Below the pieces are notes generated by a model. That model was not told the DNA's origin and searched no databases. It saw nothing but the letters and a program-made list of their open reading frames with translations. Source: an uncultured Actinomycetes bacterium (GTDB lineage Bacteria > Actinomycetota > Thermoleophilia > RBG-16-64-13). From it: a stretch of DNA of 33,847 nucleotides. The stretch is from contig CAIQPS010000136.1 of the NCBI GenBank assembly GCA_903873715.1, positions 1 to 33,847 on the forward strand, read 5' to 3'. Shown piece after piece: positions 11,731-26,670 of the stretch. A program made the translations under genes and the position numbers. Each line of letters opens with the position of its first letter. Position 1 is the first letter of the stretch.

Positions 11731-11963
11731 CGTTCCGCGTACGGCCGGCGACCGACGGTGACGTGGCGGCCATCGCCTGGGCGGGCGAGAACGGATACCG
11801 GCAACTGACCGTCAGGACCGATACGAGGCGGGCGGAGTCGCGGGCGTTCTATCCCGCGCTGGGCTTCGAAGCGTTCAAGGAGCAGCACGTTTACAAGAGG
11901 GACGCCTCCCCGCACCTGCTATCATCGGAGGGAAGCTTGGTCCGCGCAAAGAAGGGTGAGTGA
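11724..11963 (+). pseudogene. Internally deleted GNAT N-acetyltransferase remnant
   Basis: The frame encodes 79 residues, about half the length of a GNAT enzyme. The N-terminus, [16 protein letters not shown], is the first strand and helix of a GNAT fold. It runs directly into ENGYRQLTVRTDTRRAESRA and FYPALGFEAFKE, which resemble the last GNAT strands, with the central acetyl-CoA-binding motif missing. The reading frame is kept, so the loss was an in-frame deletion of roughly 60-70 residues. GTG 11724 or 11727 overlaps the purB stop, and its own stop overlaps the next ATG. A small expressed protein of other function remains possible. Confidence 0.6.
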
Positions 11964-12160
11964 TGGCGGGGCAGACCGTTTGCCCGCGCTGCGGCGCGCA
12001 AGACTCTTTCATCAAGGGCTTCCTCCCGGAGACCTGTGTCTGCCGGGTGTGCCAGAGCCAACTCGACTGGCGGGAGATCCCGGGTTGCGGCCCGGACTGC
12101 AAGACATTGAAGGGCGAAGCGCCGTCCGGCGAGGCGTCCACCGAGAGCCCGGAGGACTGA
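11963..12160 (+). CDS. Small zinc-ribbon-like protein of unknown function
   Basis: This 65-residue protein has two cysteine knuckles, CPRCG near residue 7 and CVCRVC near residues 26-31, with later cysteines in GCGPDC. The C-terminal 20 residues are acidic and likely disordered. Such mini zinc ribbons often bind nucleic acid or protein partners, but no specific family can be named. The ATG at 11963 overlaps the upstream stop (TGATG) and its own stop overlaps the purF ATG in the same way, so it is translated as part of the purine operon. Confidence 0.65.
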   Translation: MAGQTVCPRCGAQDSFIKGFLPETCVCRVCQSQLDWREIPGCGPDCKTLKGEAPSGEASTESPED

Positions 12161-13656
12161 TGCGGGAACTGACGAGCGGAGCCGGTCTGGACTCGGAGCA
12201 GAGGTACCCGTTCCCCGACTGGCTGGCTGACGAATCGCCCCACGACGAGTGTGGCGTCTTCGCCATATACGCTCCCGAGATGGATGTGGCCCGCCTCACC
12301 TTCTTCGCACTGTTCGCCCTCCAGCACCGGGGTCAGGAATCGGCCGGCATCGCCGTCACCGACGGCAGCCGCCTCATAGTCCACAAGGACATGGGCCTCG
12401 TCTCTCAGGTTTTCGAGGAATCCACACTCAAGACCCTTCCCGGGCAGCTGGCCATCGGCCATGTCCGCTATTCCACCACCGGGGCCAGCGAGCAGCGCAA
12501 CGCGCAGCCGTTCGCCCGCACCCGCAACGGGTCGTTCATCGCCCTGGGGCACAACGGCAACCTGGTGAACACCGACGAGCTCCGCGCGAGCCTCGTCGAG
12601 AACGGGCACGTCTTCGAGAGCACGTCCGACACCGAGGTCATCGCCGCCCTGCTTGCCGAGCATCCATCCCGCGACGTCCGCGCCGCGCTGCGCGACATCA
12701 TCCCCAGACTGCGCGGCGCCTTCAGCGCCGTCCTGCTCACCACCGACGCGGTCTACGGCTTCCGCGACCCGTACGGTATCCGGCCGCTCGTGCTGGGGGA
12801 GATAGAGGGGCGTTACTGCCTGTCCAGCGAATCTTCCGGCCTGGACATCATCGGGGCCCGCATCGTACAGGAGATAGAGCCCGGCGAGATCTGCTGGATC
12901 GACGCCGAGGGATACCACATCGAGCAGGTGGTGGACCGCAAGCGCGAGGCGCTGTGCGTGTTCGAGTTCATCTACTTCGCCCGGCCCGACTCCATCATGA
13001 AGGGCCAGACGCTCTACGCGGCCCGCAGCCGGATGGGCGAGGAGCTCGCCGGGGAGTCGCCGGTCGAGGCCGACCTGGTGATCCCCGTGCCGGACACCGG
13101 CAACTCGGCCGCCATCGGCTACGCCGCCCGCAGCGGCATCACCTATGGCGAGGCCCTCATCAAGAACCGCTACATCGGACGCACGTTCATCAACCCGGAG
13201 GACCGGGTCCGCAAACTGGGCATCCGCATGAAGTTCAACCCGCTCAGTTCCGCCATCCAGGGCAAGCGCCTGGTGGTCGTGGACGACTCCATCGTGCGCG
13301 GGAACACCACCCGTGCTCTGGTGAGGGTGCTGTTCGAGGCGGGCGCCAAGGAAGTGCACCTGCGCATCAGCTCGCCGCCTATCGTCTACCCGTGCTTCTA
13401 CGGTATCGACATGGCCAACCAGGACGAGTTCATAGCCTTCAACAAGACCGTGGCCGAGATCAGCGAGGAGCTGGGCGCCACCTCGGTGGCCTACCTCTCG
13501 CTCGAGGGCCTCATGCGGGCCACCAATGCCGGCGACGACGAGGACTGCTTCTGCGCGGCCTGCTTCACAGGGGACTATCCATGCGAAGTGCCCGAATACA
13601 TGAAGCTGTCGAAGTTCAGGTACGAGCAGGGGTCTTGCGGGGCCGTTGAGCGGTAG
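12160..13656 (+). CDS. purF: Amidophosphoribosyltransferase, Fe-S type with propeptide
   Basis: PurF makes phosphoribosylamine from PRPP and glutamine, the first step of purine synthesis. From ATG 12160 (GGAGG four bases upstream, TGATG overlap with the preceding gene) the product has 498 residues. The Ntn-hydrolase nucleophile is Cys31 in HDECGVFAIY, implying removal of a 30-residue propeptide. The PRPP-binding motif VVVDDSIVRGNTT lies in the C-terminal half. Cysteines in LCVFEFIYFARPDS, YPCFYGIDM and DCFCAACFTG correspond to the 4Fe-4S ligands of the Bacillus subtilis-type, oxygen-sensitive enzyme. Confidence 0.96.
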   Translation: MRELTSGAGLDSEQRYPFPDWLADESPHDECGVFAIYAPEMDVARLTFFALFALQHRGQESAGIAVTDGSRLIVHKDMGLVSQVFEESTLKTLPGQLAIGHVRYSTTGASEQRNAQPFARTRNGSFIALGHNGNLVNTDELRASLVENGHVFESTSDTEVIAALLAEHPSRDVRAALRDIIPRLRGAFSAVLLTTDAVYGFRDPYGIRPLVLGEIEGRYCLSSESSGLDIIGARIVQEIEPGEICWIDAEGYHIEQVVDRKREALCVFEFIYFARPDSIMKGQTLYAARSRMGEELAGESPVEADLVIPVPDTGNSAAIGYAARSGITYGEALIKNRYIGRTFINPEDRVRKLGIRMKFNPLSSAIQGKRLVVVDDSIVRGNTTRALVRVLFEAGAKEVHLRISSPPIVYPCFYGIDMANQDEFIAFNKTVAEISEELGATSVAYLSLEGLMRATNAGDDEDCFCAACFTGDYPCEVPEYMKLSKFRYEQGSCGAVER

Positions 13657-13760: not shown

Positions 13761-15191
13761 TCAGTCGCTCGGGGGATTGCCTCCGTGACAGCTGCAGTAG
13801 TGGGAGCCGTAGCCGTTGGGATGGCATTTCACGCAACTGATGCCCGTGGCCCTGCCGTGGTCGCCCACGATGGGATGAGTGAAGTTCGCCGGCTTCCAGC
13901 CTGCCGGGGTATGACAGTTGCTGCACGTCGTCAGACCCTTGTGCCGGTCGCCGTGGCAGCCCACGCACTTCGTGGAAGTGGGGGCCGGGAACTGGGTGCC
14001 GGGCAGCACGTCTCCACCGGGCTTGCTCACGTGGCATTTGGAGCAGGCTAGCGTCGCATGGGTGCCGATGAGCTTCAGCGGATGGGTGAAGTCCACCTTG
14101 TCCCAGCCGGCCGGGGTGTGACACTTCGTGCAGTCGGTGAGGCCGCCGTGGTTGTCGCCGTGGCAGGAGACGCACTCGGGGCTCGGTATCGGGAACTGGG
14201 TGCCCGGCACCACTTCGCCGCCCGGTTTGCTCACGTGGCACTTGGAGCAGGCGAGGGTGGCGTGGGTGTCGGTCAGCTCGAACGGATGCTTGAAGTCGAC
14301 GTTCGACCATTTCGTCGGGGTGTGGCAGCTGCCACAGTCGGTGAGGCCGCCGTGCTTGTCTTCGTGGCAGTTGTTGCAGGCCGAGTCGGCCTTCGGCATG
14401 TCGGTCCCGGCGATCAGCTCGACTCCCGGCTTGCTCAGGTGGCACTGCGTGCAGGTGAGCGTGGAATGGGCTCCGGTGAGGGCGAAGGGGTGGTTCTCGC
14501 CGGCCGATCCCCATCCGGACGCATCGTGGCAACTGCCGCACTCGCCGCGCTTCTCGTGGGGAGCGGTGTGGCAGACGGCACATTCTTTAGGCGCGATGCT
14601 GCCGTTGTGGCACTGCAGGCAGGAGGACATCTCCGCGGGATCCTGGTAGACCGGCGGCGTCACGGTGCGGTGGACCACACGGACGTGACACCTGATGCAG
14701 TCGATGCTCGCGTGCTTGCCCCCGTGTTTGAAGGTCACCGCGGTGACCGTGGAGAGCTTGAAGTCGACCGAGAGGTCGGTGTGGCAGCGGACACAACTGG
14801 AGTTCGGGATCTTCCGGGTGACACCCAGCGGGGCTTCGGGATGGCTCGAGAAGTGGACGTAGATCTCGCGGAAGGAGCCGAGTTTCGTCTCGATGTAGGG
14901 GATCGTTCCCGGCGGGATATGGCAGTCGCGGCACTCGGCGGTCGCGTGGTTGGAGTTCTGCCAGCTCTGGTAGTACGGCTCCATCTCGTGGCACGAGTCG
15001 CAGAACGAGCTTGCGCTGGTGAAGTGGGCGGTGACGAACGAGGCGACGATGAGGATGACGATCGCGCCGAAGAAGATGGAGACGCCCACGATCCACCGGG
15101 CTTTGCGGCTCCTGCGCCTCTTCTTGGGCTTTACCGATCCGCTCCCGGGCAGCGCGGTGTTCTGACCGTCCACCGGCTCGTTCTCGCTCAC
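13761..15191 (-). CDS. Membrane-anchored multiheme c-type cytochrome (17 CXXCH plus one CXCH)
   Basis: The 476-residue product has a basic N-terminus (KKRRRSRK), one membrane helix at about 33-54, and a large extracytoplasmic part. Residues 60-130, beginning FCDSCHEMEPYYQSW, resemble the NapC/NrfH quinol-dehydrogenase opening. Seventeen CXXCH heme-binding motifs are present, the first at 64-68 and the last at 453-457; an eighteenth site reads CSCH (466-469), one residue short. Residues 234-438 consist of three tandem units of 68-69 residues, each with three CXXCH and a GTxxP loop. The likely role is electron transfer from the quinone pool to an external or periplasmic acceptor. The GTG start at 15191 follows a GAGGGGGG site. 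It is transcribed away from the cob operon. Confidence 0.9.
   Translation of the reverse strand: MSENEPVDGQNTALPGSGSVKPKKRRRSRKARWIVGVSIFFGAIVILIVASFVTAHFTSASSFCDSCHEMEPYYQSWQNSNHATAECRDCHIPPGTIPYIETKLGSFREIYVHFSSHPEAPLGVTRKIPNSSCVRCHTDLSVDFKLSTVTAVTFKHGGKHASIDCIRCHVRVVHRTVTPPVYQDPAEMSSCLQCHNGSIAPKECAVCHTAPHEKRGECGSCHDASGWGSAGENHPFALTGAHSTLTCTQCHLSKPGVELIAGTDMPKADSACNNCHEDKHGGLTDCGSCHTPTKWSNVDFKHPFELTDTHATLACSKCHVSKPGGEVVPGTQFPIPSPECVSCHGDNHGGLTDCTKCHTPAGWDKVDFTHPLKLIGTHATLACSKCHVSKPGGDVLPGTQFPAPTSTKCVGCHGDRHKGLTTCSNCHTPAGWKPANFTHPIVGDHGRATGISCVKCHPNGYGSHYCSCHGGNPPSD
13878..14492 (-). repeat. Three tandem 204-207 bp repeats encoding three-heme modules
   Basis: Units lie at 14289-14492, 14085-14288 and 13878-14084. 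Each encodes HP-x-x-L-x-x-x-H-x-T-L-x-C followed by three CXXCH motifs, a SKPG loop and a CHTP/W segment. Units two and three are nearly identical over long stretches (THATLACSKCHVSKPGG in both), unit one is more diverged, and a partial fourth unit begins at residue 439. This indicates growth of the cytochrome by internal duplication. Confidence 0.85.
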
Positions 15192-15229
15192 GCAAGGCCC
15201 CCCTCGGCGCTCATTTGTCCATCCGCACT

Positions 15230-15273: not shown

Positions 15274-15302
15274 TTGACGGCCAAAGGCCTACGGTCTACC
15301 AT
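15274..15302 (+). promoter_or_regulatory. Promoter of the cobT riboswitch-operon
   Basis: TTGACG at 15274-15279 and TACCAT at 15297-15302 are separated by 17 bases. Transcription would begin near 15309, immediately before the cobalamin aptamer. Confidence 0.5.
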
Positions 15303-15305
15303 GAC

Positions 15306-15465
15306 CGGGTCAATCTCTCGGAAACGGGAACCCGGTGCGAGACCGGGGCTGCCCCGCAACTGTGACCGCGGACGGAAGCCGCCATACGCCACTGCCCATC
15401 GGGCGGGAAGGCGCGGCCGGTAGGATGAAGCGGAAGCCAGGATACCGCTACGGGAAGACGTTCAC
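15306..15465 (+). promoter_or_regulatory. Cobalamin riboswitch upstream of cobTCUS
   Basis: The conserved core is visible in order: GGGAACCCGGTGCGAGACC (15326-15344), CCCCGCAACTGTGACCGCGG (15352-15371), GCCACTG with GGGAAGGC, and the closing B12 box AAGCCAGGATACC at 15434-15446. The ribosome site GAGGGAGGG (15477-15485) lies about 30 bases after the box and overlaps the palindrome CCTCGAGG (15473-15480); no T-run terminator is seen, so control is probably at translation. Confidence 0.92.
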
Positions 15466-15491
15466 TACTGAGCCTCGAGGGAGGGCGATAA

Positions 15492-22050: not shown

Positions 22051-22185
22051 CGGTTCGACACATATGTCACGACCCGCAAGATGGTGGAGAGCAGGTTGTC
22101 TACTCCCCGGCCGGACCATGCAGTGGTCGAACCGAGTAGGCGTCCTGAGGCTTCAGGACGGAGTGCGCTTTCTCCACGGAAAGCG
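22051..22185 (-). promoter_or_regulatory. btuF leader with alternative hairpins near the ribosome site
   Basis: Between aptamer and gene the minus-strand RNA can form hairpins at 22166-22185 (CGCTTTC/GAAAGCG) and 22142-22159 (GTCCTGA/TCAGGAC). CGGTTCGAC on the RNA at 22126-22134 is fully complementary to GTCGAACCG at 22051-22059, which abuts the AAAGGAG ribosome site. A competing local hairpin can occupy part of the first arm. No T run follows any stem, which argues for translational control. Confidence 0.5.
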
Positions 22186-22194
22186 TCTGCTCCT

Positions 22195-22342
22195 CCTCTG
22201 CAGCAGGTATCTGGCTCCCGGAGACCGTCTGGGCGTCGTCTGGCTTCGCCTTCGACGGGTCTCTGGTCACAGTGGCGGGACCGCGCCGGTCTTACACCGG
22301 CTTCCCTCTCAGTCCCGGCGTGCCGGGACTTGACTGCAGAGG
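22195..22342 (-). promoter_or_regulatory. Cobalamin riboswitch upstream of btuFCD
   Basis: Read on the minus strand, a perfect 9-bp P1 stem pairs 22334-22342 (CCTCTGCAG) with 22195-22203 (CTGCAGAGG). Inside are GAGAGGGAAGCCGGTG, AAGACCGGCGCGGTCCCGCC followed by ACTGTGACC, and the B12 box AGCCAGATACC at 22206-22216. These are the conserved blocks of the cobalamin aptamer. Confidence 0.93.
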
Positions 22343-22361
22343 CACCATACTTGCAGCGCGG

Positions 22362-26340: not shown

Positions 26341-26425
26341 GTCATCCGGGGACGGAAGCCCGGACGGCGGTCCGCTTGACCGCCGCGGTCCCTGCGTGGT
26401 ACCAATGGCGGGCTTCGATAACGGA

Positions 26426-26622
26426 GCCGGGTGCCGCCGCGCGGAGACGCGAGGCGGAGAATAGGGAATCGGGTGAGAATCCCGAGCGGTCCCGCCACTG
26501 TGAACGGGGAGCGGACCCGCCAGGATGCCACTGTCCCACCACCGCAGCCGAAGGCCGGCGCGGCACGGGGGATGGGAAGGCGCGGGCGAGCGATGATCCG
26601 TCAGTCAGTAGACCTGCCCGGC
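26426..26622 (+). promoter_or_regulatory. Cobalamin riboswitch upstream of an NMT1-type ABC transporter
   Basis: P1 pairs GCCGGG (26426-26431) with CCCGGC (26617-26622). Within are GGGAATCGGGTGAGAATCCC, GCGGTCCCGCCACTGTGAAC, GATGCCACTGTCCC with GGGAAGGC, and the closing CAGTCAGTAGACCTGCC. These are the cobalamin aptamer blocks; thiamine-box landmarks are absent. An intrinsic terminator 50 bases downstream suggests control by premature termination. Confidence 0.9.
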
Positions 26623-26670
26623 TCTCTGGGAAAGGCCCTCACGGAAAGGGCCGCACCAGGGGATGATGGC

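Follow-up and report, generated by a model that had tools for sequence, protein, structure and literature searches.

A conserved terminal CX1CH motif, a candidate heme site, in NapC-anchored multiheme cytochromes of Actinomycetota

Why should a cytochrome with 17 canonical heme-binding motifs end in one that is a residue too short? The question is raised by a gene in a 33,847-nucleotide contig of an uncultured actinomycete, the whole of which was analysed and is referred to here as the window. The gene lies on the minus strand (13761..15191), with a GTG start at 15191 and a TGA stop at 13763-13761, and a purine-rich stretch resembling a ribosome-binding site (GAGGGGGG; 15198..15205, minus) is found 6 bases ahead of the GTG. 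Translation of this strand, which the initial annotation had not specified, yields a 476-aa protein and bears out its description of 17 CXXCH motifs followed by a terminal CSCH. The CXXCH motifs span aa 64-457 and CSCH occupies aa 466-469, such that the CXXCH rule is satisfied at 17 of the 18 sites and the last is CX1CH. All 36 cysteines fall inside the 18 motifs, and the protein contains 38 histidines. No other frame in the window has two or more CXXCH motifs, and the plus-strand reading of 13761-15191 contains a stop and no CXXCH. From its basic N-terminus the protein proceeds through one membrane helix, a NapC/NrfH-like part (motifs 1-5), four triheme units (A-D) and the CSCH to the tail GGNPPSD, giving 5 + 4 x 3 + 1 = 18 sites. 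AlphaFold modelled the full-length protein poorly (pLDDT 56; about 90 at aa 31-50), and a model of the C-terminal 137 aa (66.5) gave no significant fold match.

The proposal that a NapC/NrfH-like anchor is fused to triheme units was supported by several comparisons. Pfam assigns aa 32-177 (14661..15098, minus), which carry motifs 1-4, to PF03264 (NapC/NirT; E 3.9e-19, 69.5 bits against a gathering cut-off of 24.1), and NrfH (2j7a) is the best match among known structures both by sequence (PDB) and by fold (Foldseek). The predicted membrane anchor is an AlphaFold helix at aa 27-59 (15015..15113, minus), placed within PF03264. Heme 1 is of the CxxCHxM type (CDSCHEM, aa 64-70), and its CHEM is invariant in relatives. 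Also invariant are Lys103 and Glu109, which align with a Lys and an Asp of NrfH 2j7a; the conserved lysine and acidic residue near heme 1 correspond to the quinol site in NrfH. Since the N-terminal domain resembles NrfH in sequence and fold, with matching positions for Met70, Lys103 and Glu109, quinol oxidation is the natural inference, and this part of the protein would be expected to oxidise menaquinol. Identity with NrfH proper was rejected: the TIGR03153 equivalog model scores 71.9 against a cut-off of 134.2, nrfA is not adjacent and the neighbours are pur and cob genes. Motif 5 (CLQCH, aa 191-195; 14606..14621, minus) bridges the NapC-like part and the triheme units that follow.

The rest of the protein had been described as triplicated, near-identical three-heme modules of recent origin. 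We find instead that four triheme units follow the five-heme part: A (aa 204-271, motifs 6-8; 14379..14582), B (aa 272-339, motifs 9-11; 14175..14378), C (aa 340-408, motifs 12-14; 13968..14174) and D (aa 409-457, motifs 15-17; 13821..13967), all on the minus strand. The cytochrome c7 family PF14522 matches with 61.3 bits against a gathering cut-off of 24.8; TIGR04257, at 25.6 against 40, falls far under its cut-off. Identity among the units is only 30-71% in protein and 53-75% in DNA, so 'near-identical' was an overstatement, and recent expansion of the whole set is unsupported. The best pair is B/C (71% protein, 75% DNA), the remaining pairs reaching 30-62% in protein. The closest relative, L039 (at the same place as L002), is 57% identical over the matched part, and since its gene also adjoins purF and other pur genes we regard it as a syntenic ortholog. 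It has 12 sites (5 + 2 x 3 + 1) and ends in CTPCH; relative to it, the window protein therefore has two extra triheme units, and its terminal motif is shorter by one residue. The B/C pair alone may thus represent a lineage-specific duplication. A comparison of repeat number among relatives, as the initial annotation had proposed, gave a range of 9 to 29 CXXCH, the number of triheme units varying widely.

For the terminal motif itself, C466-S-C468-H469 (13785..13796, minus), two readings had been offered, an unusual heme site and the loss of a site, and relatives with CXXCH at this place were to expose an assembly error. Such relatives exist: L033, like the ortholog L039, ends in CTPCH, which is the one point that speaks for an artefact of sequencing or assembly, or for decay of the site in a single genome. 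The wider family argues strongly against it. We drew relatives from the window's own class (Thermoleophilia-like) and from Coriobacteriia, both Actinomycetota, and assembled 41 members with a complete C-terminus, leaving out the unrelated L042, L043 and L058 and adding L085 and L134. Among these the terminal motif is CX1CH in 23, CX2CH in 18 and degenerate in none. Because the automatic family filter accepts only proteins with a C-x(1-3)-C-H close to the end, it would discard a wholly degraded site, and the C-termini of the family loci were also inspected by eye; no degraded terminal site was seen among them. Since 22 other proteins, from two classes and in open frames, carry CX1CH, with codons that differ while Cys and His are kept, the CSCH is no assembly error, and we regard error or decay as exceedingly improbable. 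These comparisons indicate that CX1CH is a real, conserved feature.

The motif is also constrained in ways that set it apart from a relic. Both cysteines and the histidine occupy homologous columns that are invariant in an alignment of 34 C-termini, and X in the 23 CX1CH proteins is always T (12), P (6) or S (5). The two spacings come with different tails: CH(G/K)GxPPxGD follows CX1CH, of which the window's GGNPPSD (13764..13784, minus) is an example, and mostly acidic runs follow CX2CH. PP is found in the tails of 14/23 CX1CH proteins versus 0/18 with CX2CH, and the acidic fraction is 0.10 versus 0.38 (p 1.3e-6). One relative (L084:1426-2730 (+)) has 14 CXXCH and two CX1CH (CGCH and CSCH) in duplicated terminal-type modules, its second copy being the only other CX1CH within family proteins. 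Outside such a module CX1CH occurred once (L077) among 71 other multiheme frames with 701 CXXCH. A search of 348 Bacillota genomes gave one distant match, which lacks CX1CH but contains masked stretches.

How the two spacings are related was examined on a tree of the N-terminal part (40 rows, three of them on long branches), which is unrooted, such that the older state is not readable. The spacing state changes eight times on this tree, at least six of these changes being forced by well-supported branches, and a single CX1CH clade was rejected (p 2e-5). One Coriobacteriia genome encodes adjacent paralogs that end in CTCH and CTACH (L037:238-2773 (+)). Exchange of C-terminal modules between paralogs could lie behind some of the changes; with or without it, the pattern indicates that the CX1CH motif is maintained by selection. 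Because C-x-C-H is kept, alternates with CXXCH at the same place and has its own conserved tail, the survey argues against the 'lost' half of the earlier proposal. Heme at the site is likely.

Other sites in the family vary in spacing too. At heme 1 most Coriobacteriia share CX2CH with the window protein, and several relatives have CX3CH; at heme 3 the window protein and L039 have CX2CH and others CX4CH. Together with the terminal site, this means that the family tolerates spacings of one to four, if all of these hold heme. To our knowledge, the unusual heme spacings described all have at least two residues or lack a Cys. CX3CH, CX4CH, CX15CH and single-Cys motifs also depart from the two-residue spacing while binding heme covalently, but the CX1CH spacer is shorter than any characterised one we found. 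In the open-access literature we found no characterised CXCH heme site, and the sole mention of CXCH was as a search pattern. Tests of the E. coli Ccm machinery have reportedly shown attachment to CXnCH with n = 2-6, and not with n = 1, which counts against heme at CX1CH. The terminal CX1CH, kept intact in relatives, is probably an unrecorded kind of heme attachment.

Whether so short a spacer could reach the heme was addressed with a geometric search, in which sampled peptide conformations were scored for their fit to an idealised heme held by two thioethers and an axial His. In the arrangement that gives CX2CH its cytochrome c helical turn, the lowest penalty reached by CX2CH was 4.0 in one run and 5.5 in another; CX1CH reached 6.4-6.9 over three runs, and CCH 18.1 in its single run. 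Other choices of face and orientation lowered the CX1CH penalty to 1.5-1.9, with the X residue extended. Thr and Pro favour such an extended conformation. The search is crude, small, noisy and undersampled, treats the peptide alone and scored CX3CH, known to occur, at 10.6. In this model, geometry would permit CX1CH to reach both heme vinyls and the iron; the spacing is not forbidden, and nothing beyond that is implied.

We put at even chances the full proposal: that CX1CH is a genuine c-type heme spacing class, that it forms the exit heme of NapC-anchored conduits in Actinomycetota of anaerobic type, that System I* matures it, and that it is retained because it offers another heme geometry, with Cys-X-Cys extended instead of helical, or another redox role. 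The motif may instead have ceased to bind heme, leaving 17 hemes, and now act as a redox-active pair of thiols, bind a metal or serve as a docking tail. Its spacing does lie outside the described CXXCH rule, its GGxPPxGD tail looks specialised, and a conserved distal His or other ligand was not found near the terminal site for either spacing, the preceding segment having a His in a minority of members. Against this, 18 relatives, the syntenic ortholog included, have a canonical CX2CH heme site at the homologous position, the two spacings interchange repeatedly on the tree, and the His is as strictly kept as the cysteines, where a simple disulfide would need no His. We therefore consider loss of heme binding unlikely, if deserving of serious attention. 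The missing distal His can also be read in another way, in that the terminal site could be an open exit heme, although this is speculation.

A further variant would retain the heme but attach it by a single thioether through the Cys next to the His, as in kinetoplastid cytochromes c, the first Cys being spare or regulatory. Single-thioether cytochromes c exist (PMC8262978), the Cys-His pair of CX1CH retains its canonical relation, and the two-thioether fit in the natural heme arrangement was somewhat poorer for CX1CH than for CX2CH. The first Cys, however, is invariant in 23/23 CX1CH proteins, including both copies in L084, which is unlike a spare residue and makes this variant rather improbable.

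Contig C137 of the genome carries ccmE, ccmF and ccmC in one run (CcmF and CcmC identified by Pfam); between ccmF and ccmC, in the places expected for CcmA and CcmB, are genes for an ABC ATPase and a membrane protein. The CPSKY with which CcmE ends is of the System I* type (CXXXY, with Cys for His), and a CPSKY CcmE was found in 10/10 genomes tested. System II was rejected, ResB being absent from the genome. A Desulfovibrio System I* operon needs neither CcmG nor CcmH to produce holocytochromes in E. coli (PMC3601427). A CcdA/DsbD-type transmembrane protein (PF02683; 630..1346, plus), encoded 12 kb from the cytochrome gene, may supply the thiol reductant used in maturing cytochromes c. Two genomes have side-by-side pairs of CcmE-type domains (L098/L104 in G004; L094/L105 in G009); CPSKY is present in both domains of the former, and the latter gave one match to the pattern used. 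Beside the ccm operon (L092:9121-13163 (-), G000:C137) lie further multiheme frames: one encodes a protein with paired CXXCH, and another, of 962 aa, combines lysozyme-like and M23 peptidase domains with three CXXCH.

These observations suggest a model, towards which we lean somewhat as a whole, in which the protein is a membrane-anchored, menaquinol-oxidising conduit with a CX1CH exit heme. On the membrane's outer face, the NapC/NrfH-like N-terminus would oxidise menaquinol, and the electrons would travel along 17 canonical hemes, five in the NapC-like part and 12 in the four c7-like units. They would reach an exit heme at the C-terminus, attached to the CSCH by the System I* Ccm machinery, for final transfer to an outside acceptor or a partner cytochrome. 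The direction of flow and the acceptor are inferred. Against the model, the cytochrome gene stands alone, neither a partner reductase nor a surface cytochrome being encoded beside it, and the structure predicted for the full-length protein is poor. The variable number of triheme units fits a conduit of adjustable length. As for the 'molecular wire in a Gram-positive-type cell' first proposed, the Actinomycetota setting agrees with the cell type, and the wire would be this conduit. NapC-family proteins commonly pass electrons to separate reductases, and the cytochrome might likewise supply a periplasmic-type reductase or another cytochrome, as an NrfH- or CymA-like hub; the genome does encode further multiheme proteins, on contigs C137 and C166. 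But no reductase gene was found nearby in the window or in the examined relatives, and the 9-29 CXXCH range is more in keeping with a conduit whose reach varies than with one fixed docking partner. We consider such a hub unlikely, while giving it real weight.

Parts of this architecture are familiar. NrfH, NapC and CymA share the single N-terminal membrane helix, the NapC-type domain, the CxxCHxM heme 1 and the Lys and acidic residue near it, but have 4-5 hemes, to which the window protein adds 12 triheme-unit hemes and the terminal CX1CH. ImcH, of Geobacter and others, also combines a NapC-like part with a multiheme extension, and has an atypical CX3CH by a membrane helix, as do several relatives of the window protein; it differs in having three membrane helices, 5-9 CX2CH, no c7 triheme array and no reported CX1CH (PMC6295460). 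Cytochrome c7 and triheme 'nanowire' repeats (PF14522, TIGR04257) are built of similar CXXCH units with interspersed His, whereas here they are joined to a NapC-like anchor in one chain, with CX1CH at its end. Also comparable are the proposed Gram-positive quinol oxidisers, of similar size and heme number: multiheme proteins of Anaerosomatales (PMC9686372) and a 20-heme putative quinol oxidase of Carboxydothermus ferrireducens (Ga0395992_02_135863_137242), the latter constitutive during growth (PMC7829351). A terminal CX1CH is unreported for either, and C. ferrireducens belongs to another phylum, Bacillota. Each of two cultured Coriobacteriia carries 17-18 multihemes, and Fe(III) is a requirement for one of the two (PMC9686372).

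Genome surveys, which as a rule count hemes by CXXCH, would overlook CX1CH. If the motif binds heme, it would set a new lower spacing limit for the Ccm machinery and mark the last heme of membrane-to-outside conduits in little-known Actinomycetota. The natural CX1CH/CX2CH pairs, namely the adjacent L037 paralogs and the window protein with its ortholog L039, offer a ready-made test, and L084 would be a good single relative.

The gene stands alone between a plus-strand pur run (purA, purD, purE, purB, purF) and a divergent cobalamin riboswitch (15284-15467, plus) that adjoins cobT. One group of relatives (f3) adjoins an Nramp metal transporter gene, a hint, and no more, of a link to Mn or Fe metabolism. 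Because the PurF match within the 566-aa purF frame (11956-13656 (+)) begins only at aa 99, translation probably starts further downstream. Two further cobalamin riboswitches are present in the window (22185-22353 (-) and 26412-26635 (+)), making three in 34 kb, and in their vicinity lie cobT, a gene for a CobC-like phosphatase and a CobS gene.
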